Shown one piece after another: positions 2,548 through 32,088 of a stretch of DNA of 32,562 nt. Made by a program: the position numbers and the translations under genes. The DNA comes from an uncultured Lentisphaerota bacterium (GTDB lineage Bacteria > Verrucomicrobiota > Kiritimatiellia > CAIQIC01): positions 1-32,562 of the forward strand of contig CAISWQ010000039.1 in NCBI GenBank assembly GCA_903889245.1, in the 5' to 3' direction. The first letter of the stretch is position 1, and each line of letters starts with the position of its first letter. Below the pieces are notes generated by a model. The model was not told where the DNA came from. It saw nothing but the letters and a program-made list of their open reading frames with translations, and did no database searches.

Positions 2548-2814
2548 ATGAAAGGAAAGCGGTTCAGCGAAGAGCAGATTATTGGGGTATTGAAGGAAGC
2601 CGAAGCGGGTTTGCCATTGCCGGATCTCCTGCGGAAGCACGGGATTGCCCAAGGCACCTTCTACCGCTGGAAGGCCAAGTTTGGCGGGCTGGAGATCAGT
2701 GACGCCAAGCGGCTCAGGGCGTTGGAGGACGAGAACCGGCGCCTCAAGCGGTTGGTCGCCGAGCAGGCGCTGGATATTCAGATTCTCAAGGATGTCACCT
2801 CAAAAAAATGGTAA
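2548..2814 (+). CDS. IS3-family transposase OrfA
   Basis: This 88-residue DNA-binding subunit recognises the element's ends. Residues 1-50 are a helix-turn-helix of the IS911/IS3 OrfA type: [17 protein letters not shown], then [20 protein letters not shown] leucine-zipper-like helix follows ([20 protein letters not shown]), used in this family for multimerisation. The frame ends TCA AAA AAA TGG TAA at the slippery run, so a fraction of ribosomes should slip -1 to make an OrfAB fusion transposase. OrfA alone usually acts as a regulator of transposition. An AGGACAAGCG stretch precedes the ATG. Confidence 0.93.
2802..2808 (+). promoter_or_regulatory. A7 programmed -1 frameshift site
   Basis: In the orfA frame the run reads A-AAA-AAA. 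A -1 slip here enters the orfB frame at ATG 2808. This is the classic way IS3 elements make the OrfAB transposase. I have not identified a downstream pseudoknot. Confidence 0.7.
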
Positions 2815-3743
2815 TGCCCACAGCACGGCGGGAAGTGGTGACGTATGCGAGCACGACGTATGGGATCAGCGTGCGCCGCGGTTGTGGGCTGATGAATTTC
2901 CGCACCAGCAGTTTCTATTATGCGACCCAGCCCAAGCAGGAGGGGCCTCTGCTGCAAGCGATCCGTCAGTTGGCGCAACGCTACCGGCGGTGGGGCGTGC
3001 CACGGATTGTGGACCGGTTACATCGGGAAGGTTGGCCCGATAATCACAAACGGATCGAACGGCTTTACAGCGCAGCTGGTTTGCAGGTTCGGCAGCGACG
3101 ACGTAAACGCTTGGATCGTGGAGCCCGGGAACCGCTTCTGCAGGCCACTGGCGTGAATCAGATCTGGGCGATGGATTTCATGAGCGATGCGCTGGCTGAT
3201 GGCCGTAAAATCCGGCTATTAAACATCCTCGATGTCTATAACCGTGAATGTCTGCGCATCGAAGTGGACACCTCGTTGTCCGGCGTACGAGTGGCCCGTA
3301 TCTTGGAGGAGTTGTATGCAGCCCGTGGGCTACCGCGGCAGATCATGGTCGATAATGGCCCGGAGTTTACCGGACGTGCTTTGGACGCTTGGGCCTACAC
3401 CCGTGAGGTGAAACTCTGTTTTATCGAACCAGGGAGACCCATGCAGAACGGATACATCGAAAGCTTCAATGGCAAACTGCGGGATGAGTGCTTGAACGAA
3501 CATTGGTTCACGAGCGTGACGGAGGCCCGCTGCGTGACTGCGGGCTATCGGCGACACTACAACACAGAGCGCCCGCACAGTGCGCTGGGCCAGCTGACCC
3601 CGATTGAGTTTGCTCGAGCGGAGTTACCCACAGCCGCACGTTCGGGCTGTGGGACGCCCTCCCGTGCGGCTATGGATAACTCCTTGAACAAAGAAACCAG
3701 TGTGATAACAATGCAGTCAAACACCGACCGGGACTCACTCTGA
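2808..3743 (+). CDS. IS3-family transposase OrfB (DDE integrase core)
   Basis: This is a 311-residue catalytic subunit. Visible blocks: an N-terminal HTH_21-like region ([17 protein letters not shown]), then a retroviral-type rve core with [10 protein letters not shown] (first Asp), IMVDNGPEF (second Asp) and [18 protein letters not shown] (catalytic Glu), closing with [12 protein letters not shown]. All three acidic residues of the DDE triad are present. The frame overlaps orfA by 7 bp in the -1 phase, so the active enzyme is probably the OrfAB fusion. The tail past GQLTPIEFA is about 40 residues longer than the conserved core and ends close to the right inverted repeat. Confidence 0.93.
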
Positions 3744-6663: not shown

Positions 6664-7851
6664 TCAGACTGCGGCAACTGGCGCAAACGTGATCTCCGGC
6701 AGCGCGGCAATCGCGGCTCGCTTCTGGTCGAAGTCGGCGTGACTGTAGAGCGCGGTCATGGCCGGACTGCCGTGGCCGACCAGATCTTGGATGGCCACCT
6801 GCGGGACGCGGTTAACCGCACAGAGGCTGACGAAGGAATGCCGCAGGCTGTGGAAGCCCTTGCGGACGATGGCGCGCTGGCGGTGCCCGGTCGCCTGCTC
6901 AAAGGTCGCGATACCGCACTCACGCAGGAAGTTCTGGAAGCGTTTGGAGAACGCCGACACCTCGCGAATATATTCGGCGGCTTCTTCGGGGAAGACGTAG
7001 TCCTCACTCTGCGCGACTTGGCGGCGGCGTTCTTCCAACAGTGCGGCCAGAACCGAATGCAAGGGGATCGTCACGGTCTTACCCTTGCGACGGGTCTTGC
7101 GCGGCGTCAGCTCGATCCGTCCAGGTTTGATGGCAGACCAGCGCAGCGTGAGCACGTCACCCAGTCGCAGACCGGTGTAGAGACCAATGGCGAGCATGTA
7201 GCGCATGGTGCCCCGTGCCTTGCGACAGAGCGTCGCCAACTCGTCGGGCGTGAAGTTCAGGCGTCCTTGCGTTTCCTTTTCCAGTTTGCGGATGTGCAGC
7301 CAGGGATTGTCCAAGAGTCCGGCCTTCACACGCAGGGTGGTGAATACCGAGCGCAGGAACTGGATGTGACCATTGAACGAGCGTGGCGAGAACTTGCCGC
7401 GCCAGAGATCCCGCGCGTAGTCATCGGCGTGGGCGTCACTGACGTCGTGCAGATGTTGGATGTTATGGAGCTTCGCCCAGTCAATGAACCGCTGCCACGT
7501 GGCCCGATAGCCGGCGATGGTCGTGGCGCAGGGGTTACCCTTCTGCGGCGAGGCGAGCCATTCCTTCCAAGTATCATCGAGCGTGATGGGCGTCAGCGCC
7601 ATCGCGCTAAGCTGGCGCGACAGGCGTAACCGCATCTCAATCTGTTCTTTGGTGGGCAGGCGGCCGATGCATTCCTGCAGCACGATGAACTGTTTGATGA
7701 TCGTGCCCTCACCGCGCGCCGCGGCCTTGGCCGCGTTGGCAATGTCTTGGGCGGAACTGCGGTCGGTCTCGCCCGTGCTGACCCAGGCTTGCCGCCCATT
7801 CCGCGACAAGCGGTACCAGTAAATCTTTCCACGTTTGAAAACTTTCGGCAT
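6664..7851 (-). CDS. Tyrosine recombinase/integrase of a mobile element
   Basis: This 395-residue integrase catalyses site-specific integration and excision of the element. An N-terminal Arm-type region (KRGKIYWYRLSRNGRQAWVSTG) comes first, then a SAM-like core-binding domain at about residues 90-185 (DTWKEWLAS through RKLEKE), then the catalytic domain. All active-site residues are visible: Arg229 in GLYTGLRLGD, Lys256 or Lys258 in TRRKGK, His334 and Arg337 in HSLRHSF, His360 in LVGHGS and nucleophile Tyr369 in ALYSH. GGGGA precedes the ATG. The gene faces away from the fucosidase cluster, at the right edge of the island, as integrases usually do next to their attachment site. Confidence 0.92.
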   Translation of the reverse strand: MPKVFKRGKIYWYRLSRNGRQAWVSTGETDRSSAQDIANAAKAAARGEGTIIKQFIVLQECIGRLPTKEQIEMRLRLSRQLSAMALTPITLDDTWKEWLASPQKGNPCATTIAGYRATWQRFIDWAKLHNIQHLHDVSDAHADDYARDLWRGKFSPRSFNGHIQFLRSVFTTLRVKAGLLDNPWLHIRKLEKETQGRLNFTPDELATLCRKARGTMRYMLAIGLYTGLRLGDVLTLRWSAIKPGRIELTPRKTRRKGKTVTIPLHSVLAALLEERRRQVAQSEDYVFPEEAAEYIREVSAFSKRFQNFLRECGIATFEQATGHRQRAIVRKGFHSLRHSFVSLCAVNRVPQVAIQDLVGHGSPAMTALYSHADFDQKRAAIAALPEITFAPVAAV

Positions 7852-8049: not shown

Positions 8050-8079
8050 AGTGCGCCGCGCTTTACGAAAGGAATGATT

Positions 8080-11000
8080 ATGAAGGCGAACGGCTGGCTG
8101 GCGGGTCTGGTTTTTCTGGCGATGACGGGCGGCGCGCAGGCGGAAGGGCTGGCGCTCAAGCAGGATGGACCGCTGTTCGAGGTCGCGCCGTGCAAGGCGC
8201 TCGACCAGACCGAGGAGCTCACGCTCGAAGCCTGGGTCCAGGCCGAGAGGATGAAGGGCGGCGGCGGGCGGATTCTCGATAAGTCCACTTCCGGCACGTC
8301 CGAGGGCTACATGCTCGACACGCATCCGGGCAACTCGCTGCGCTTCCTGACCATGGGCGGCACGCTCACGTTCAAGGCGAACCTGCCGGCGAAGAAGTGG
8401 AGCCACGTGGTCGGCGTCTTCAGCGTGGCCCAGAAGAAAATGCAGCTCTTCCTCGACGGCAAGGAGGTCGCCAGCCGCAAGGGCGACCTCAAGCCGATGA
8501 CGGTCACCAAAAATCCGCTGCGCCTCGGCAGCGATCCGCGCGGCGACAACCGCTTCCACGGGCGCCTCGCGCGCGCGGCGGTCTATGGCCGCGCGCTGAC
8601 GGTGGAAGAAGTGACGCAGCGTTGCACGGCGGGGGCGGCCAACGCCGCGGCGCTGCCGGGCGTGCTCGGCGACTGGAAGTTCACCGCCGAACCAACGGGC
8701 GAAATCAAGCCGGTCGCGGGCACGCTCGCCCTGCGGCAGGCGCGGGGCGATAGCAGCGCCGTGGCGAGCGGGCCGAGCGCGGAAATTTCCGGCGCGGCCG
8801 CGGCGCCGGAAGCGCCGCTCTGCCTGTGGTATCGCCAGCCCGCCAAGCAGTGGGACGAGGCGTTGCCGGTCGGCAACGGCATCATGGGCGCGATGGTCTA
8901 TGGCGGCGCGCCAACCGAGCACATCCAGTTCAACGAGCACACGGTCTGGACCGGCCAGCCGCATTCCTACGCGCACACGAACGCCGTCGCCACGCTGCCG
9001 AAAATCCGCGCGCTGCTCCAAGAGATGCGCGCGGCACACCGCGCGGCGAGCAAGCTGGACCCGAAGTGGGAAGCGAAAGCGGCGCAGGAGAAGGTCAAGG
9101 AGGCGCGCGCCAAACAGAAGGAAGCCGATGACCTCGCCATGCGGGAATTCATGAGCGAGCCGCTGAAGCAGAAGGCCTATCAGCCGTGCGGCGATCTCTT
9201 CCTCGACTTCGCCGGACACGACAAGGTGAGCGACTACCGCCGCTGGCTCGATCTCGATACGGGCGTAGTGGCCACCGAATACAAGGCCGGCGGCGTGGCC
9301 TTCCGCCGCGAGGTGTTGGCCTCGCATCCCGACCGCGCGGTCGTCGTGCGCGTGACGGCCGACCAGCCGGGCAAACTCGACTGCGTCATCCGCCTCGGCA
9401 GCGCGCATAAGGACGTGAAGTACAGCGTGGAGGGCAGCGACACGCTCGTGATGAACGGGCTGGTGGAGGAAGGCGGCATCCGCTTCGAGGGCCGCGCCGT
9501 GGTCGCGGCCGAGGGCGGCCGCGTCGCGGCGGAGCCGGAGGGCGTGAGGGTCGCGGGCGCGAGCGCGCTCGTCATCAGGCTGGTGGCGGCGACGAACTTC
9601 AAGAATTTCCGCGACCTCGGCGGCGACCCGACGGCGGGCGCGCAGGACCTGCTGAAAATTTCCGCGGGCAAGCCGTGGGCGCAGTTGCGGCAGGCGCACG
9701 TCGCGGATCACCAGACGCTGTTCAAGCGCGTCGCGCTCGACCTGGGCCGGACCGCCGCCGCGCAGTTGCCGACCGATGAGCGCATCAAGGCGTTCGCCAC
9801 CGGCGATGATCCCGCGCTCGCCACGCTGCTGTTCCAGTACGGGCGCTACCTGCTGATCGGCTCCAGCCGCGAGGGCGGCCAGCCCGCGAACCTGCAAGGC
9901 ATCTGGAACGACAAGCTGCGCCCGCCGTGGGACAGCAAGTACACCTGCAACATCAATACCGAGATGAACTACTGGCCCGCCGAGCCGGCGGCGCTCGGCG
10001 AATGCCACGCGCCCCTGTTCGTCGCGCTCGGCGAACTCGCGCAGTCGGGTGCGGAAGTCGCGAAGGAGCACTACGGCGCGGGCGGCTGGGTGGTCCACCA
10101 CAACTTCGACCTCTGGCGCGGCGCGGCGCCGATCAACGCCGCCAACCACGGCATCTGGGTCACCGGCAGCGGTTGGATGGCCACGCACCTCTGGGAACAT
10201 TTCCAGTTTACGCAGGACCGCGACTTCCTCGCGAAGACCGCCTATCCGCTGATGAAGGGCGCGGCGCAATTCTACGCCGACTTCCTCTTCGAGGATCCGC
10301 TCACCGGCTGGTTGGTCAGCGGCCCCTCGAATTCGCCGGAGCAGGGCGGACTCGTCACCGGCCCGACGATGGACCACGCGATCATCCGCTGCCTCTTCCA
10401 GCAGACCGCCGAGGCCGCGCAACTGCTCGGCACCGATGCCGACCTCGCCGCGAAACTCACCAAGCTCGCCAAACGCATTGCGCCCAACCAGGTCGGGCAG
10501 TTCGGCCAGTTACAGGAATGGGTCGAGGACCGCGCCGACCTCGATAATCCCAAGAACCAGCACCGCCACTGCTCGCACCTCTGGGGCCTTTATCCCGGCG
10601 ACGACATCACGTGGCAGGACAAGAAATTCTTCGAGGCTGCCAGGCAATCGCTGCTCTACCGCGGCGACGCCGCGACCGGCTGGAGCATGGGCTGGAAGGT
10701 CAACTTCTGGGCGCGCTTCCTCGATGGCGACCACGCGCTCGTCATCCTGAAGAACCTGATCACGCCGATCTGGCTGAAGAAGGGCCATGGTGGGCTTTAC
10801 GCGAACATGTTCGACGCGCACCCGCCCTTCCAGATTGACGGCAACTTCGGCGCCGCCGCCGGCATCGCGGAGATGCTGCTGCAGAGCCACATTCGGATAC
10901 CTGAGACCAGGGACCTGAAACCTGAAAACGAGCCCGCCGGACTTCAGGTTTCAGGTCTCAAGTCTCAAGTTTTCCTTCTGCATCTGCTCCCTGCCCTGCC

Positions 11001-11175
11001 CTCGACATGGCCGACCGGCTCCGTCACCGGCCTGCGCGCGCGCGGCGGCTTCGTCGTGGATATCGCCTGGAAGGATTGCAAAGTCACCAGCTACCGCATC
11101 GCCTCCGCCACGCCGCGCACCGTGCAGGTCAAGGTCAATGGCGAACTGAAGAAAGTCCAAGCGGATAAATTGTGA
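8080..11175 (+). CDS. Secreted GH95 alpha-L-fucosidase with N-terminal LamG-like domain
   Basis: This 1031-residue inverting fucosidase should remove terminal alpha-L-fucose, typically alpha-1,2-linked. Residues 1-22 are a signal peptide (cleavage near AQA-EG). A LamG/concanavalin-like module spans about 25-200 ([36 protein letters not shown]). The GH95 part runs from [19 protein letters not shown] near 245 to the end. Catalytic motifs agree with the family: Asn624 and Asn626 in [12 protein letters not shown], the acid Glu754 in SNSPEQG and Asp920 in FQIDGNFG. The ATG at 8080 is chosen because AAAGGA lies 6 bp upstream; an ATG two codons earlier is too close. A repeat-derived insert of about 28 residues lies at 10894-10975. 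Some GH95 enzymes act on L-galactosides, so the substrate is not certain. Confidence 0.92.
10894..10975 (+). repeat. In-frame hairpin insert of 7-bp word repeats, copy 1
   Basis: GACCTGAAACCTGAA and TTCAGGTTTCAGGTC form a 15-bp perfect inverted repeat around a 16-base GC-rich loop. The segment encodes RIPET, DLKPEN and [10 protein letters not shown], splitting the usual GH95 sequence between LLQSH and LLPALP. An almost identical segment occupies the same place in the second GH95 gene. Confidence 0.85.
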
Positions 11176-13172
11176 AGCTGACCTGGCGATGGCTGATGAT
11201 GAGTCTGTTGTTGCTCACGCACGCCTGGGCCGCGCCCACCATCTTCTGGGTCTCGCAGCCGGTCCAACCCAGCGAAACCGTGCTGGCGCAGGGCGGCGGC
11301 TGGGATTCCAACGTCGTCGTCGAAATCTCGCGCGGCGCTGGCTGTTGGACCACCGCGGAGGTTATGCAGGTCACGGCCCGCTCCTTGAAGTTCGTGCTGC
11401 CGGTGGACTGGCCGACGGGCGCGAGCGCGTGCCGCGTCCAAGGCGGGCCCGCGGTTCCGCTCAACGCGCCGGAAGTGTGGTGGGTGCAGGGCGACCGCGG
11501 TGGCACGGCCACGCCCGGGGGCTGGATACGCGCCTTCGGCACCTGCCTGACCGCGACCAACAGTTATGCGGCGAGCTTCCGCGTGCCGCAGGATACGCCG
11601 CTGGGCCTGCTGGTCACTAACGGCATTGCCTGCGCAGTGGCCAGGCCACAACCGTGGCCGACCAATGTTTTCATGGTGCTCAACGGCGATCTTCCCGCCG
11701 CGCTCGCTGCCGCCGCCGCCAATGGCGGTGGCCGGATTCGCCTGCCGGCCGGCACCAACGAAGTGCGGCAGCCGCTCGTGCTTCCGCCGCGGACGATGCT
11801 GGAAGGCGCGGGCCGCGAAGCCACCGTACTGTTTTGGCCGGAGCCCGGCGCGGGCGCTGGCAGCAAGCCGGCCGGCCTGCTTTCCGGCACCTCGTTTGTG
11901 CTCGCCGATCTCACGCTCGCGGCACTCAAGCCCCACGCCGGCCCCGGGCTCTGCCGCACCCCGGATAGCAACGGCTGGGCGCGCATCCACCGCGTGCGCG
12001 TGGCGCTCGCCAACGAACCCAAGCCCGGCCGGCACGGCATCTATATTGACCGCGCCGATAACACCGAGATCACCGGCTGCGTCGTCACCGGCGTCCCGCG
12101 CGCCATCGGACTGAACAAGGCGCGCTACGCCTGCATCGCCGGCAACGAACTCCACTATGGCTGGAACGGCGTGACGATGAACGCGACCCGCGCCGTCATC
12201 TTTGAGGAGAACCAGCTCTGCGTTTCCTACACAGGCGAGAAGCGCGACACGGGCAGCAACTTCACGGCTTACGGCGCGCCGGTCGCCCGCGACCTCTACT
12301 TCGCCCATAACCGCCTCTGGTCGCCGGAGCATCATGACAACGGCTTCACCTTCGATGGCGGCGATGGCCTCTATCTGGGCAAGATCGAGCGCGCCGAGGG
12401 CACGCGGGTCACGCTGCCGCAACCGCCGATGCGCCGGCAGGGCGAGACGCTGGCGCCTTTTGCCGACTGGCCCGGCGCGAGCCTGCACGTCATGGAGGGC
12501 GCCGGCGCGGGCCAGTACCGCCACGTCGTCGCCATCCGCGGCGCGGTGATCGAGGTGGACCGGCCGTGGGATGTGCCGCTGGGCGGTGACTCGCTCGTCA
12601 CGCTGGTGAACTTTATCGGGCGCGTGCTGCTGGTGGAAAATGAGTTTGCGGACGCGCTCTGGACCAAGGCCTATGCGATGACCGCGGATGTGATCTTCGC
12701 CGGCAACCGCATGAGTCACCACGGCACGGCCTGCGGCAGCCTCGATGCCGATGCTGGCACGCACAACATCGGGCTGCTGCCGGGTTTTCACTTCCAGGCG
12801 CTCGACAACCTCCTTGTGCGCGGCCCGACGCGCATCGGCTGCAATGGCCGCCACATCACCAATAAGCGCTCGGCACGGGTCGGTTTGGACCATGTCTGGT
12901 ACACCGGCCCCGTCATGCTCGGCAGCGTCTTCCGCCGGAACAGCGCGCGGCCGGAGGCCGCCGCCGGCAGTTCCATCACCATTGGCTCCTCGCATCCCGG
13001 CGTCAGCCCGGTCGCCGATATTCTCATCGAGCGCAACACCGTCCCGGTGGTCCGCATCGAAAAAAACAACCACGATATCCTGCTGCGCGAGAACCGCTGG
13101 CAGCACAACCCGCCCGCTTACACCGGCCCCGGGTTCGCCGCGCCCACCGTCCGCATCGTCCAACAACCCTGA
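11172..13172 (+). CDS. Secreted right-handed beta-helix protein (pectate-lyase-like fold)
   Basis: This is a 666-residue exported protein. Residues 1-20 are a signal peptide ([16 protein letters not shown]). The middle and C-terminal parts carry the short strand-turn units of parallel beta-helix proteins: [72 protein letters not shown] and [10 protein letters not shown]. Such folds hold polysaccharide lyases, GH28-like hydrolases and sulphated-glycan enzymes; I cannot assign a catalytic triad. The GTG start overlaps the fucosidase stop as GTGA, so it is coupled to that gene. The context suggests it cuts or binds the fucose-containing backbone. Confidence 0.75.
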
Positions 13173-13182
13173 AGGAGAAAAG

Positions 13183-14010
13183 ATGAAAAACCACATCGCC
13201 TGCTTGATCATCCCCGCGCTGTTGCCCCTGCTGGCCATGGCCCAGACCGCGCCCAAGGGCGAGCCGACCAACGCGCAGGAAGCCGCGCTCCAGAAAAAAT
13301 ATGGCGACAAGCTCAAGGTGCAGGACTACGCCGCTTACCAGCAACTCGTCGCCGCGCTGCCGCCCGATGAGCAGGCGTGGGAGAAAATTCTGGAAGACCA
13401 GCTTGGCGGCTTCTACTTCCCCATCCACGTCAGCGAGCGCCTGAAAAAACGCATCACCGCGTGGAGCTTCGTCAGGGATGACCCCGCCCTGCCGCGCGTC
13501 CTGCTGATCGGCGACTCCATCTCGCGCTCCTACACGGTGGACGTCCGCCGCCTGCTCGCCGGCAAGGCGAACGTGCACCGCGCGCCAGCCAACTGCGGCC
13601 CGACCGATAACGGGCTCAAGAACATGCCGGTCTGGCTTGGCGACGGCAAATGGGACGTGATCGTCTTCAACTTCGCCATCCACGACCGCACGAAGAAACC
13701 GGAGCAGTACGCGGCGAACCTGGAGAAGGTCATCGCGCTGCTGGAGGCGACCGGCGCCAAACTCGTCTGGGCGCGCACCACACCCTTCCAGAGCAAGGGC
13801 AGCAAGAACACCGACGACAGCCCGGCGCTCAACGCCGTCAGCGACCCGGTGATGAAGCAGCACAACATCCCGCTGACCGATCTCCACGCCGCGGTCAACG
13901 GCGTGGTCGCCACCGCCCGCAGCAGCGACAACTGCCACTTCAACGAGACCGGCATCAAGCTCCTCGCTGCCGCGGTCGTCAAAACCCTCGATCCGCTGCT
14001 GAAAAAGTAA
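13183..14010 (+). CDS. Secreted SGNH/GDSL hydrolase (probable carbohydrate esterase)
   Basis: This is a 275-residue esterase-type protein with a signal peptide (residues 1-20, ending in LLAMAQ). SGNH blocks: VLLIGDSIS with nucleophile Ser112, an Asn-containing region around PANCGPTDNG, VIVFNFAIHD, and the final DNCHFNETG supplying Asp249 and His252 with DxxH spacing. It probably removes acetyl or similar groups from a glycan so that the neighbouring GH95 enzymes can act. That role is inferred from context. GAAGGAG stands 5 bp before the ATG at 13183 and overlaps the stop of the beta-helix gene, so the three genes form one operon. Confidence 0.82.
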   Translation: MKNHIACLIIPALLPLLAMAQTAPKGEPTNAQEAALQKKYGDKLKVQDYAAYQQLVAALPPDEQAWEKILEDQLGGFYFPIHVSERLKKRITAWSFVRDDPALPRVLLIGDSISRSYTVDVRRLLAGKANVHRAPANCGPTDNGLKNMPVWLGDGKWDVIVFNFAIHDRTKKPEQYAANLEKVIALLEATGAKLVWARTTPFQSKGSKNTDDSPALNAVSDPVMKQHNIPLTDLHAAVNGVVATARSSDNCHFNETGIKLLAAAVVKTLDPLLKK

Positions 14011-14017
14011 GCGTTGC

Positions 14018-14069
14018 TTTTTTCCAAGGCTTGGAAAAAATCCGGCCGCGTTTTCCAAGCCTTGGAAAA
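14018..14069. repeat. Two phased copies of the TTTTCCAAG palindrome
   Basis: Copy one (14018-14040) has 11-bp perfect arms around a single G. Copy two (14051-14069) has 9-bp perfect arms around a C. Their CC steps are 31 bp apart (14024 and 14055), with spacer TCCGGCCGCG. The array ends 16 bp before the ATG of the second GH95 gene. Confidence 0.9.
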
Positions 14070-14085
14070 ATGGGAGACATGACCT

Positions 14086-16782
14086 ATGCACAACAGGTAT
14101 CTGGCGGTCGCGGTGGTGATGTTGGCGGGGATGGCGCAGGCGGGCGACCCGCTGACCCTGTGGTATGACAAGCCGGCGCAGGATTGGCAGAAGGAGGCGC
14201 TGCCGGTCGGCAACGGACGCCTCGGCGCGATGCTCTTCGGCGGCGTACAGCGCGAGCACATCCAGTTCAACGAGTCCACCCTCTGGCTTGGCGACGAGAA
14301 CGACACCGGCGCCTACCAGGCTTTCGGCGATGTGTTCGTTGATTTCGGCGGCGGGCCGATGTCGGCGGAGTGTGCGAGCGGGCAGGCATCGCCGGGCGGT
14401 CAATCGGTTGAGGCCAGCGTTGACGGCAAGCCGGCGACGAAGTGGTGCATGGAGCATGGCGGCAAGCCCGCCGTGTGGATCGGACACTTCGCGAAGGAGA
14501 CGGCCATTCCCTCGTACGCCTTCACGTCCGGCGGCGACATGCCGGCGCGCGATCCGAGGTCGTGGACGCTGGAGGGCTCGAACGACGGCGCGACGTGGAA
14601 GCTGCTCGACAAGCACGAGAACGAGCCGCCGTTTGCGGAACGCGGACAGCGGAAGGAATACACGTTCGCGAACGACGCGAAGTTCCTGCACTACCGCTTC
14701 ACGTTTTTCGATCACGGATCGAAGACGCATTTCCAGGTCGCGGAAATCGAGCTTGGGCCGCAACGGAACGCGAAGGCCGCTCCCGCAAAGTACCGCCGCG
14801 AACTCGATATCGGCCGCGCGGTCCACACGGTGACCTACGAGAGCGGTGGCGTGCAGTTCCGCCGTGAGGCTTTTGCCAGTCACCCGGCCGAGGTGGTGGT
14901 GTTCCGCTTCACCGCCAACCAGCCGGGCGCGCTCACCGGCTCGGTTGCGCTGACCGACATGCACCAGGGGAAGATCGTCGCGGAGGGCAACCGGCTGACC
15001 GCGTCGGGCTCGCTCGCGGGCTATGCCTATAAGGAAGGCTCGGCGCAGGCCGAGTCGCCGCACAAGCCGTACAAGCTCGCGCTCGACTACGAGGCGCAGG
15101 TGCTCGTCCGCAACACGGGCGGCACGTTGGCGGCGGCGGATGGAAAGCTCGTGTTCACGGGCGCGGACAGCCTCACGATCTTCCTCAACGCGGGCACGGA
15201 TTTCGTCCAGGACCGCGCGCGGGGTTGGCGCGGCGAACACCCGCGCGCGAGGATCGCGCGCCAGTTGCAGGCGGCGTCGGAAACGCCGTTCGAGAAATTG
15301 CGCGCGGAGCACGAGGCGGATCACCGGAAGCTCTTCGACCGCGTCACGCTGACGCTGGGTCAGCACCCGGATACGACAGAGCAGACCAATCCGACGGATA
15401 TGCGACTCCTGCACTACACGCAGGGTACGCCCGACCCCGGACTGGAGGCGCTGGTCTTCCAGTACGGCCGCTACCTGCTGATCAGTTCATCGCGCGAGCT
15501 GCTGCCGGCGAATTTGCAGGGCGTCTGGAACAACTCGATCCGCCCGGCCTGGCGCTGCGATTATCACACCGACATCAACGTGCAGATGAACTACTGGCCC
15601 GCCGACGTCGCGAACTTGTCCGAATGCTTCAGGCCCTACGCGAAGTGGCTCAACTCGATCCGCGAGGTGCGCAAGGAGGCGACGAAGGCGGAGTTCAAGA
15701 CGCGCGGCTGGACGATGCGCGCGGAGAACGGCGTCTTCGGCGGCTCGACGTGGCAGTGGGTCGAGTCGGGCAGCGCGTGGTGTATGCAGAACATCTGGGA
15801 GCATTACGCGTTCACCGGCGACAAGGAGTATCTCCGCGCGCTGGCCTACCCGATGATGAAGGAGGTCTGCGAATTCTGGCTCGACCGGCTCAAGGCGCTG
15901 CCCGATGGCACGCTCGTCGCGCCGAACGGCTACTCGCCCGAGCACGGCCCGCGCGAGGACGGCGTCGCGCACGACCAGCAACTGGTCTGGGACGTGTTCA
16001 ACAACACGGTCGAGGCCGCCGACGCGCTCGGCGTGGACCGCGAGTTCCGCAACGAGCTTGCCGCGAAGCGCGATAAACTGCTCGGACCGAAGATCGGCAA
16101 GTGGGGCCAGCTTCAGGAATGGATGGTGGATCGCGATGACCCGAAGGACACGCACCGCCATCTCTCGCATCTCGTCGCGGTGCATCCCGGCCGGCAGATC
16201 ACGCCGGCGACCACCCCGCAGTGGGCCGAGGCCGCGCGCGTCTCGCTCAACGCGCGCGGCGATGTCAGCACCGGCTGGAGTACCGCGTGGAAGATCAATC
16301 TCTGGGCGCGGCTGGGCGATGGCGAGCGCGCCTACAAGCTCATGCACAACCTGCTCCGCCTCGTCGGCGATACGCGCATGAACTACAACCGCGGCGGCGG
16401 CCTCGCCGCGAACCTCTTCGACATGCATCCGCCGTTCCAGATTGACGGCAACTTCGGCTACACCGCCGGTGTCTGCGAAATGCTGCTGCAGAGTCACACC
16501 CGGATACCTGAAACCGGAAACCTGAAACCTGAAAATGAGTCCGCCGGACTTCAGGTTTCAGGTCTCACGCCTCAAATTTCCCTGCTACACCTTCTCCCCG
16601 CCCTGCCCAAGGCGTGGTCCTCCGGCGCCGTCACCGGCCTGCGCGCGCGCGGCGGTTTCACCGTGGACATCGAATGGAAGGACGGCAAGGTCACCGGCTA
16701 CCGCATCACCTCGCCCCACCCCCAGCCGGTCAGGCTCCGCCTCGGGGACAAAGTGCGCACCATCACCTCCACGCCGCCCTGA
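14086..16782 (+). CDS. Secreted GH95 enzyme with nested discoidin-like domain
   Basis: This 898-residue enzyme has a signal peptide ending in MAQAG. The GH95 N-terminal sheet starts at [12 protein letters not shown] and is interrupted at about residues 92-234 by an F5/8-type C (discoidin, CBM32-like) module: [31 protein letters not shown] and FQVAEIEL. It resumes at [11 protein letters not shown]. Catalytic positions: Asp496 and Asn498 in [11 protein letters not shown] (the first is Asn in the other copy), acid Glu619 in YSPEHG and Asp787 in FQIDGNFG. The repeat-derived insert (16501-16582) lies before [14 protein letters not shown] precedes the ATG. Amino-acid similarity to the first GH95 is moderate, so the two may differ in linkage or sugar (fucose or L-galactose). 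Confidence 0.9.
16501..16582 (+). repeat. In-frame hairpin insert of 7-bp word repeats, copy 2
   Basis: ACCTGAAACCTGAA and TTCAGGTTTCAGGT form 14-bp perfect arms. The loop contains the smaller palindrome GTCCGCCGGAC. It matches 10894-10975 at about 72 of 82 bases by eye and encodes RIPET, NLKPEN and LQVSGL at the same place in the GH95 fold. Confidence 0.85.
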
Positions 16783-30152: not shown

Positions 30153-31013
30153 ATGATCCTCGTGCGACTCATGGGCGGGCTGGGCAACCAGATGTTCCAG
30201 TACGCGTGCGGCCGCGCGCTGGCCTGGCGCACCGGCCACGCGCTCGTGCTGGACCCCAGCCACCTCGCTACGCGCCACCCCACCGCGCCGCGCCGGTTCA
30301 GCCTCGACGCCTTCCCCATCGCCGCGCGCCTCGCCACCCCGGCGGACACTGCGGAGGCGCAGTCCCTGCCCGCCTTGCTCTGGCGGCGGTTCGGCCGCCC
30401 CCTCGCCTCAGACCTGACCATGGCCTGCGAACACGGCCTGCGCTTCCAGCCGGACCTCTTCCCCGCGCGCTTCCAGCGCCTCTGCCTCGTCGGCTACTGG
30501 CAGACCGAGAAATATTTCAGCGACTGCGCCGACCTCATCCGCCGCGACTTCGCCCCGCGCACCGCCCCCGACCCCGCGCTGGCCGCGCGCCTGGCGGCGG
30601 CGCCTTCCGTGGCGCTGCATATCCGGCGCGGCGACTACGCGGCCGACGCCACCATCAACAGCGTCCACGGCCTCTGCCCGCTCGACTATTATCACCGCGC
30701 GGCGGCGCACCTCGCGGAGCGTGTGGGCCGGCCGCAGTTCTTCCTCTTCTCCGATGACCCGGACTGGGCGCGGGCGCACCTGCAACTGGAGCACCCCCTG
30801 CACGTCATCTCCGACGGCCGGCGCGCGCCCGCGGAGGAACTGGCGCTGATGACCTGCTGCCGCCACCACATCACCGCGAACAGCAGCTTCAGTTGGTGGG
30901 GCGCGTGGCTCAATCCGCGGCCCGATAAACTCATCTGCGCGCCGCGCGCCTGGTTCCGCGACCCCGCGCTCGACGCCACCGACCTCGTCCCCGCCACCTG
31001 GCTGCGCTTGTGA
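30153..31013 (+). CDS. GT11-family alpha-1,2-fucosyltransferase
   Basis: This 286-residue enzyme transfers L-fucose from GDP-fucose to galactose-like acceptors. Family motifs: an ILVRLMGGLGNQMFQYA start, LVGYWQTEKYF, the donor-binding HIRRGDY near residue 153, LFSDDPDWAR and SSFSWWGAWLN. The length is typical. It completes the polysaccharide locus and implies a GDP-fucose pathway elsewhere in the genome. A GGCGGAGGCGCGCC stretch precedes the ATG. The next gene's upstream in-frame GTG overlaps its stop. Confidence 0.92.
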   Translation: MILVRLMGGLGNQMFQYACGRALAWRTGHALVLDPSHLATRHPTAPRRFSLDAFPIAARLATPADTAEAQSLPALLWRRFGRPLASDLTMACEHGLRFQPDLFPARFQRLCLVGYWQTEKYFSDCADLIRRDFAPRTAPDPALAARLAAAPSVALHIRRGDYAADATINSVHGLCPLDYYHRAAAHLAERVGRPQFFLFSDDPDWARAHLQLEHPLHVISDGRRAPAEELALMTCCRHHITANSSFSWWGAWLNPRPDKLICAPRAWFRDPALDATDLVPATWLRL

Positions 31014-31024
31014 GGACACCCCCG

Positions 31025-31999
31025 ATGCCCACCCCGCCCCCATCCGCCAGCGACCCCTTGCTCGAACACTTCCTGCGCTACCTGCAGGGCGAACGCGATG
31101 CCTCGCCCCACACCCTGCGCAATTACCGCCTGGACCTGCTCCAGTTCGCCGCCGGCCAGTGGGGCGCCGACGCGCCGCCGCCCTTCCGCTGGCGCGAGGC
31201 CGACCGCTACGCCGCCCGCCGCTTCCTCGCCAGCTTCCAGCGCGCGGGCCAGAAGGCCACCACCACCAACCGCAAACTCTCCAGCCTGCGCTCGTTCTAC
31301 CGCTTCCTCATCCGCGAAGGCCACACCGACCTCAACCCCTTCCGCGCCGTCCAGTCCCCCAAGCTCCCCAAGCGCCTGCCCCAGGTCTTGAGCGTCGTGG
31401 ATGTCGGCCGCCTGCTCGATGCGCCGCGCAAGGCCGGGCCCGCCCCCGGCGTCGCCGAGAGTCCCAAGTGGAAGGCCTTCGATGACTACGCCCGCCACCG
31501 CGACACCGCCATCCTCGAACTCCTCTACAGCACCGGCATGCGCGTCAGCGAACTCACCGGCCTGACCGCCGACCGCCTTGACTATCTCTCCGGCGTCATC
31601 AAGGTCCGCGGCAAAGGCAAGAAGGAGCGGCTGTGCCCGATGGGCAACCCGGCGGCGCGCGCGCTCAAGGCCGCGCTGGCCGCGCGCGAGCTCTGGTTGC
31701 TGGTGCTCGGCCAACGCGGCGGCAGCGCGCTCTTCCTCAACTGCGATGGCGGCCCGCTGACGGTGCGCTCCATCGAGCGGATGCTGAAGAAGTACGCCGT
31801 GCTCGTCGGCCTCTCGCCGCGGCTTTCGCCGCACACCCTGCGCCACAGCTTTGCCACGCACCTGCTCGATGCCGGCGCCGACCTGCGTAGCGTGCAGGAG
31901 CTGCTCGGCCACGCCAGCCTCTCCACCACCCAGATCTACACCCACGTCTCCATCGAGCGCCTCAAGGCCGTCTACGACCAGGCCCACCCCCGCGCGTGA
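31025..31999 (+). CDS. XerC/XerD-type tyrosine recombinase
   Basis: This 324-residue recombinase probably resolves chromosome dimers. The core-binding domain spans about 10-100 ([22 protein letters not shown], then [14 protein letters not shown]). Catalytic residues: Arg173 in [10 protein letters not shown], a lysine in VRGKGKKER, His270 and Arg273 in [19 protein letters not shown], His296 in LLGHASLS and Tyr305 in QIYTHVS. The strong [28 protein letters not shown] block separates it from the mobile-element integrase at 6664. An insertion with [20 protein letters not shown] lies before the Arg motif. The ATG at 31025 follows TGAGGAC; a GTG five codons earlier overlaps the fucosyltransferase stop. 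XerC and XerD cannot be separated from sequence alone. Confidence 0.9.
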
Positions 32000-32035: not shown

Positions 32036-32088
32036 CCTCTGACTCCTGTTCCCTGACCTCTGACTTCTGATCTCTGACTTCAATCTCT
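32036..32088. repeat. Degenerate 7-bp word repeats (CTCTGAC type)
   Basis: The stretch is built from variants of CTCTGAC, TTCTGAT, CCCTGAC and CTCTGAC in near 7-bp steps. The opposite strand translates to SEIRSQRSG-like strings, a pattern I recall from PVC-group intergenic regions. It fills part of the gap between the recombinase gene and the last gene. Confidence 0.7.

Follow-up and report, generated by a model that had tools for sequence, protein, structure and literature searches.

Known heptanucleotide repeats of bacteria include the STRR heptamers of cyanobacteria, GGGAATC in Xanthomonas and TAACTGA in Beggiatoaceae (PMC4692102, PMC4679880). Bacterial heptamers are over-represented, lie chiefly between genes and are under-represented within them (PMC4692102, PMC4679880). 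Their avoidance in coding DNA, which is expected to hold units of a multiple of three (PMC4679880), is reported to arise because seven is not such a multiple, and polymerase slippage has been proposed, as reported in PMC4679880, as the cause favouring seven bases in bacteria. A second related system is the Rickettsia palindromic element (RPE), which is translated in frame within unrelated proteins (Ogata et al. 2000, 2002, summarised in PMC10969869); according to that summary, RPEs fall into families about 150 bp long whose sequence and peptide are conserved. Here we examined a stretch of 32,562 nucleotides from an uncultured Lentisphaerota bacterium (assembly GCA_903889245.1, contig CAISWQ010000039.1; hereafter the window), in which two genes of the fucosidase-type GH95 family, Wa and Wb, each contain an 82-bp repeat in frame and at the same place. 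We found that this repeat is not a unique hairpin but two degenerate heptanucleotide arrays, inverted relative to each other. It appears to belong to a genomic repeat that is repeatedly translated into protein, and is not kept out of genes.

The case works like both known systems, but it falls under the definition of the heptamer repeats only and lacks the fixed-family feature of the RPEs. As in heptanucleotide repeats, the units are seven bases long, degenerate and dispersed, several heptads occur per genome, and period 7 is in excess. Unlike those repeats, the arrays lie in frame in conserved enzymes, return to the same loop and often form inverted pairs. The likeness to RPEs consists of in-frame palindromes in unrelated proteins (five GH95 proteins and topoisomerase VI-B, Top6B), apparently tolerated at the surface, whereas the heptad unit, the variable length and sequence, the lack of common ends and the presence of unrelated sequences at one site in related species set the arrays apart. 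We found nothing on heptamers in Verrucomicrobia in the open-access literature, and no description there of sequence-changing heptad arrays recurring at homologous protein loops. We conclude that the pattern is real and uncommon; any function of the insert is putative.

The two window copies, at 10894-10975 and 16501-16582, are identical at 72 of 82 bases (88%), which bears out a preliminary sequence-only reading that had placed the copies there and put their agreement at about 88%. That reading had also judged them far more alike than the rest of the paralogues, and a codon alignment of Wa and Wb agreed, with 84% identity in the insert loops and 54% in the remaining gene away from the site. 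Perfect inverted repeats of 14-15 bp had been noted as well; the longest are 15 bp (10912/10943) in copy 1 and 14 bp (16520/16550) in copy 2. As single-stranded DNA, both copies formed better folds than any of 200 shuffles (z of -5.8 and -4.6). Each consists of heptads in a row (ACCTGAA, ACCGGAA, ACCTGAG and the like), followed after a spacer of roughly 16 nt by inverted units (TTCAGGT, CTCAAGT). Tandem Repeats Finder reported period-7 arrays at 10913, 10943 and 16506, and the best period was 7 or 14 for every heptad insert that we analysed. A unique hairpin, or a miniature inverted-repeat transposable element (MITE), was our first idea and was dropped once the heptad arrays appeared. The hairpin of the sequence-only reading stands as a fold. 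It is not unique, since such arrays occur in this genome at far more places than two.

Using the insert as a query against the whole assembly, we obtained 24 partial matches, and a degenerate three-unit heptad pattern matched the genome 77 times, compared with 6 for a reversed control. Most arrays outside GH95 had a single arm and lay either between genes or in uncertain surroundings. In-frame heptads were also present in leucyl-tRNA synthetase (LeuS), Top6B, two kinase/FGE-sulfatase proteins, an Rhs-repeat protein and a Mu-like prophage protein. Inverted pairs were found in five GH95 genes and Top6B, and one-sided arrays in LeuS, the kinases and Rhs. In a 400-kb sample of this genome, chosen regardless of repeats, seven was the top short tandem period, with 7 arrays of several heptads against 0-3 for other periods and 0 in shuffles. 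Period 7 was likewise prominent in DNA of family relatives. Arrays in the ACCTGAA direction would yield a TGA every 21 nt, and coding copies have ACCGGAA or other variants at that phase, which is the expectation for any open frame. None of 9 heptads in stop phase bore TGA in the coding copies, compared with 49 of 85 units in arrays taken as non-coding; this comparison is partly circular, as open frames were selected and the "non-coding" arrays are unannotated, and we do not use it as main evidence.

Both window copies lie in one open frame, with LLQSH upstream and LLPALP downstream, between the Pfam GH95 catalytic and C-terminal domains. The genome has five full GH95 genes (Wa, Wb, C28x, C28y and C79), and every one carries an insert, always between LLQS or LMQS and LLPALP. 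Over 500 other GH95 loci matched, and 80 from many phyla were kept for comparison. Most of the 80 have a loop of about 6 residues, such as HTGEIE (loop lengths of 4 in this listing are an artefact of the search expression), and the best matches among named genomes were mixed, with Akkermansiaceae, Planctomycetota, Limisphaerales and others. The alpha-fucosidase FucOB of Akkermansia (PDB 7znz), which shares family, fold and catalytic Asp with the window proteins, has no insert, nor do the other solved GH95 members that we found. The sequence-only reading was therefore right that GH95 proteins normally run on directly from LLQSH to LLPALP, and the insert, absent from most homologues across phyla, is no ordinary family loop.

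We then built a tree from the catalytic and C-terminal regions, with the loop and insert removed beforehand. Wa clustered with two orthologues that have a 12-residue loop, and Wb, C28y and C79 with orthologues that have a 6-residue loop; C28x clustered with L060, which lacks an insert, and L084, which has one. Inserts occurred at scattered tips. Sister genomes have as many as a dozen GH95 genes and mostly lack inserts. Because orthologues of single paralogues lack the insert, it is not older than the duplications. The arms are tandem heptads whose number varies: C28x is 21 nt longer than C28y, and in five GH95 inserts the length added beyond a 6-codon loop is 84, 84, 84, 105 and 168 nt, all multiples of 21, which is what growth by whole heptads would give if the frame had to be kept.

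Comparison of sister species showed different heptads at this one site. L061 (genome G001), L089 (G003) and L088 (G002) are an orthologue trio, with catalytic-domain identities of 92% for L088/L089 and 80% for L088/L061. L061 has a 6-residue loop, empty of insert. L089 has 168 additional nt of ACCTGAA-type heptads in frame. L088 has 107 additional nt, consisting of CGAGTGA units followed by inverted CACTCGA units, which fold as a hairpin (z of -4.5) and leave the C-terminal domain in a different frame. Further heptads occupy the site elsewhere, of GTCAGAA/TTCAACC type in L085 (G005) and of ACTCCGA type in L134, from the named Limisphaerales genome UBA7542. Since the architecture is the same and the sequences are unrelated, what these inserts have in common is the period and, in several of them, inverted arms. 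The differing heptads of the sister species strongly support entry more than once at one site, in line with one suggestion of the sequence-only reading.

Two unrelated proteins of essential type gave a similar result. The editing-domain loop of LeuS, from GAEV to TTRPDT, is filled by genome-specific heptads: TTTCAGG in G000, CCGCCAT in G002 and G003, AGCCTTC in G005, GGTTCAG in G004, CCGAATG in G012 and CGGTTCA in G014. LeuS orthologues in most of the other genomes examined had no such loop periodicity. In Top6B, the genomes G000, G001 and G005 have ACCTGAA pairs at the loop, and arrays of other heptads occupy it in G003, G004 and G012. None of 400 codon shuffles was as periodic as the LeuS and Top6B loops. 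When whole genes were scanned, period-7 arrays in the loop and elsewhere numbered 7 and 0 for GH95, 4 and 1 for LeuS, and 8 and 0 for Top6B; among periods 5 to 11, none other than 7 was found at these loops in any gene examined. In this genome and its relatives, heptad runs have apparently landed repeatedly at one loop each of GH95, LeuS and Top6B, with the frame nearly always kept. In the window's own genome, the heptads of LeuS (L018, contig C33) and of the Rhs-repeat protein (L012, C45) seemingly replace a native stretch of equal length and add nothing; 42 nt separate GAEV and TTRPDT in this LeuS, as in G001.

We also compared the flanks of the inserts between neighbouring GH95 genes. C28x and C28y lie 2.5 kb apart and are 52% identical as genes, whereas their inserts are 84% identical and about 120 bp of right flank 84-92%; the right flank of C28x is only 64-76% like that of its orthologues. 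Such likeness in otherwise divergent genes points to gene conversion, which is well supported for this pair. The first 45 nt of the Wb right flank are 78% identical to Wa and 62% to the Wb orthologue, which makes conversion likely for the window pair. The right flank of C79, in contrast, is closer to its orthologues (84-89%) than to its paralogues (60-73%), suggesting a separate arrival or a conversion tract limited to the insert. The sequence-only reading had offered two entries, gene conversion or an insert older than the duplication: entry more than once and conversion both appear to have acted, and the ancestral insert is contradicted by the empty orthologues. Its interpretation is thus supported in part; it did not note the tandem structure of seven bases, the inserts in all five full genes or the similar arrays in LeuS and Top6B.

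To locate the insert in the protein, we modelled the product of Wb and aligned it to FucOB. Membership in GH95 is supported by the Pfam N-terminal, catalytic and C-terminal domains and by a fold match to 7znz (E 2e-56); the putative activity would be that of an alpha-1,2-fucosidase or L-galactosidase. A signal-peptide-like N-terminal sequence suggests that both window proteins are exported. The insert spans residues 804-825 of the model, a loop predicted with low confidence and flanked by strands 797-802 and 827-832; as the mean predicted local distance difference test score was 66, few sequences were available and the N-terminal 230 residues are unreliable, we used only this local strand-loop-strand. 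The catalytic Asp of FucOB, D699 (PMC10063614) of the DGNFG motif, aligns with D783 of the model, 19-20 residues ahead of the insert. In FucOB the catalytic barrel ends at 712 and the C-terminal beta-sandwich starts at 713 (PMC10063614), which puts the insert at the turn joining the two. By model and alignment, the helix that begins at the catalytic Asp has the insert at its other end, probably away from the active site.

Taken together, we consider it likely that the 82-bp copies are in-frame heptanucleotide arrays of a kind that the lineage makes and spreads, arriving recurrently at a tolerant GH95 turn and also passed on by conversion. The lineage would generate facing heptad runs and spread them to many places, with the period of seven constant and the sequence not. 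Occasionally arrays with different heptads would reach the turn between barrel and beta-sandwich in different genes, because this turn tolerates extra residues, and neighbouring GH95 genes would exchange them by conversion. Working genes would retain only arrivals in frame and free of TGA. Units may multiply by slippage or template switching, the inverted arm may come from fold-back synthesis, and retention would reflect tolerance, not benefit. Several points weigh against this account. In Wa, Wb and L085 the length gained is not divisible by 7, so not all steps were whole-heptad. A 200-kb sample of G003 contained no period-7 array at the threshold used, which implies that heptad load varies between close species. 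The genomes are draft assemblies, for the most part from metagenomes, and repeats in such assemblies are prone to error; the frame break in L088 (locus G002:C101:31041-33000, at about 1237-1365) may be an assembly error. Finally, slippage, a donor and array-length polymorphism were not observed directly.

A single palindromic mobile element, resembling a MITE or an RPE, with GH95 and Top6B as preferred targets and the heptads as its internal structure, could explain why left arm, spacer and right arm are common to the five GH95 copies and the Top6B copy, and why C28y and Top6B share the stretch TCCGAATTTCAGGTTTCAGGTCTCAAGTCTCAAGTTT. This genome also has two Y1 (IS200/RAYT type) transposase-like genes, candidates for the cognate transposase that a REP/RAYT system pairs with its short palindromes. 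We regard such an element as unlikely. The added length ranges from 78 to 168 nt, no ends are conserved, and no target-site duplication is visible against the empty orthologues; unlike in a MITE, the arms are tandem heptads of varying number. Moreover, arrays elsewhere are mostly one-sided, and sister species hold unrelated heptads in the same architecture at the same site. These differing heptads also argue against conversion alone, in which one GH95 insertion would have been copied to the remaining four genes. The flanks of C28x/C28y and of Wa/Wb are what this explanation would produce, but the C79 flank is not, and the related arrays in Top6B, the kinases and LeuS lie in genes without GH95 homology, leaving it improbable.

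The presence of inserts at a single site in five of five genes of one genome could instead mean that they are selected, the extra hairpin serving as a GH95 binding surface or interface. Frame retention and TGA avoidance agree with selection, though the latter is in part a consequence of picking open frames. However, the sister genomes mostly do without inserts, insert sequence differs freely among species, and the modelled loop is of low confidence. In six family genomes tallied by hand, heptad load and the share of GH95 genes with inserts gave a rank correlation of 0.84 (p = 0.04), which fits supply and not demand. We therefore hold selection to be doubtful. The sequence-only reading had called the repeat tolerated, or used, inside an exported enzyme, and its first half fits our results; use is putative. 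Least credible, to the point of being nearly discounted, is an insert ancestral to the GH95 paralogues and lost in most orthologues. It would account for five paralogues having the insert in one position and with a similar layout, but it needs many exact losses, each restoring a 6-residue HxGxIx turn, and has to accommodate the scattered tree tips and the homologue survey, with its more than 500 matches to other GH95 loci, in which the 80 retained were without insert.

Heptamers, reported as avoided in coding DNA, here repeatedly enter conserved enzymes, including an aminoacyl-tRNA synthetase. A period of seven is useless for the reading frame, which argues for a period determined at the level of DNA, not by protein selection. 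The empty, in-frame and out-of-frame orthologues amount to a natural experiment on how non-coding repeats become protein, one that also bears on why many bacteria favour period seven. In PVC-type (Planctomycetes-Verrucomicrobia-Chlamydiae) genomes, such loops are unfit as conserved domains or signatures. A bolder idea, that an active process writes period-seven, often inverted, sequence-changing arrays into chosen turns of conserved proteins, strikes us as a long shot; if true, new in-frame loops would be supplied continually and protein variation would be driven by the genome.

Table 1. Positions of the GH95 genes, their expanded loops and the heptad arrays in the window.
Feature	Coordinates	Strand	Basis or remark
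GH95 gene a (Wa): Laminin_G_3 lectin-like domain; GH95 N-terminal, catalytic and C-terminal domains	8074..11175	+	ORF, Pfam
Wa expanded loop, 96 nt, 32 codons; 12 codons there in Wa orthologues	10888..10983	+	
Wa left heptad arm, ACCTGAG ACCAGGG ACCTGAA ACCTGAA	10899..10926	+	sequence, inverted-repeat arm
Wa right heptad arm, inverted, TTCAGGT TTCAGGT CTCAAGT CTCAAGT	10943..10970	+	sequence, inverted repeat
GH95 gene b (Wb): F5/8 type C domain within N-terminal part; GH95 catalytic and C-terminal domains	14086..16782	+	ORF, Pfam
Wb expanded loop, 96 nt; usual 6 codons there (HTGEIE in orthologue L100)	16495..16590	+	
Wb left heptad arm, ACCTGAA ACCGGAA ACCTGAA ACCTGAA	16506..16533	+	sequence, inverted-repeat arm
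Wb right heptad arm, inverted, TTCAGGT TTCAGGT CTCACGC CTCAAAT	16550..16577	+	sequence, inverted repeat
Third heptad array of the window, CTGACCT/CTGACTT (GTCAGAA type), intergenic	32036..32088	.	adjacent to integrase-like gene 31010-31999

Upstream of the window GH95 genes are an IS3-type transposase integrase core and a phage-integrase-type recombinase gene (2808-3743 and 6664-7851). The window also contains a palindrome, TTTCCAAggcTTGGAAA, at 9 sites (0.04 expected): 8033, 14021, 14052, 16794, 16825, 16856, 21588, 30028 and 30060. These sites are mostly intergenic and occur as pairs or triples spaced 31-32 nt apart. Genome-wide, we counted 1959 sites at no more than one mismatch, 1010 of them exact, compared with 0 for the control; at roughly one per 2.7 kb, the palindrome forms a very dense family resembling repetitive extragenic palindromes. 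Relatives within the genus had 712, 507 and 162 exact sites, those in the sister genus 5 and 1, and one more distant genome 452.

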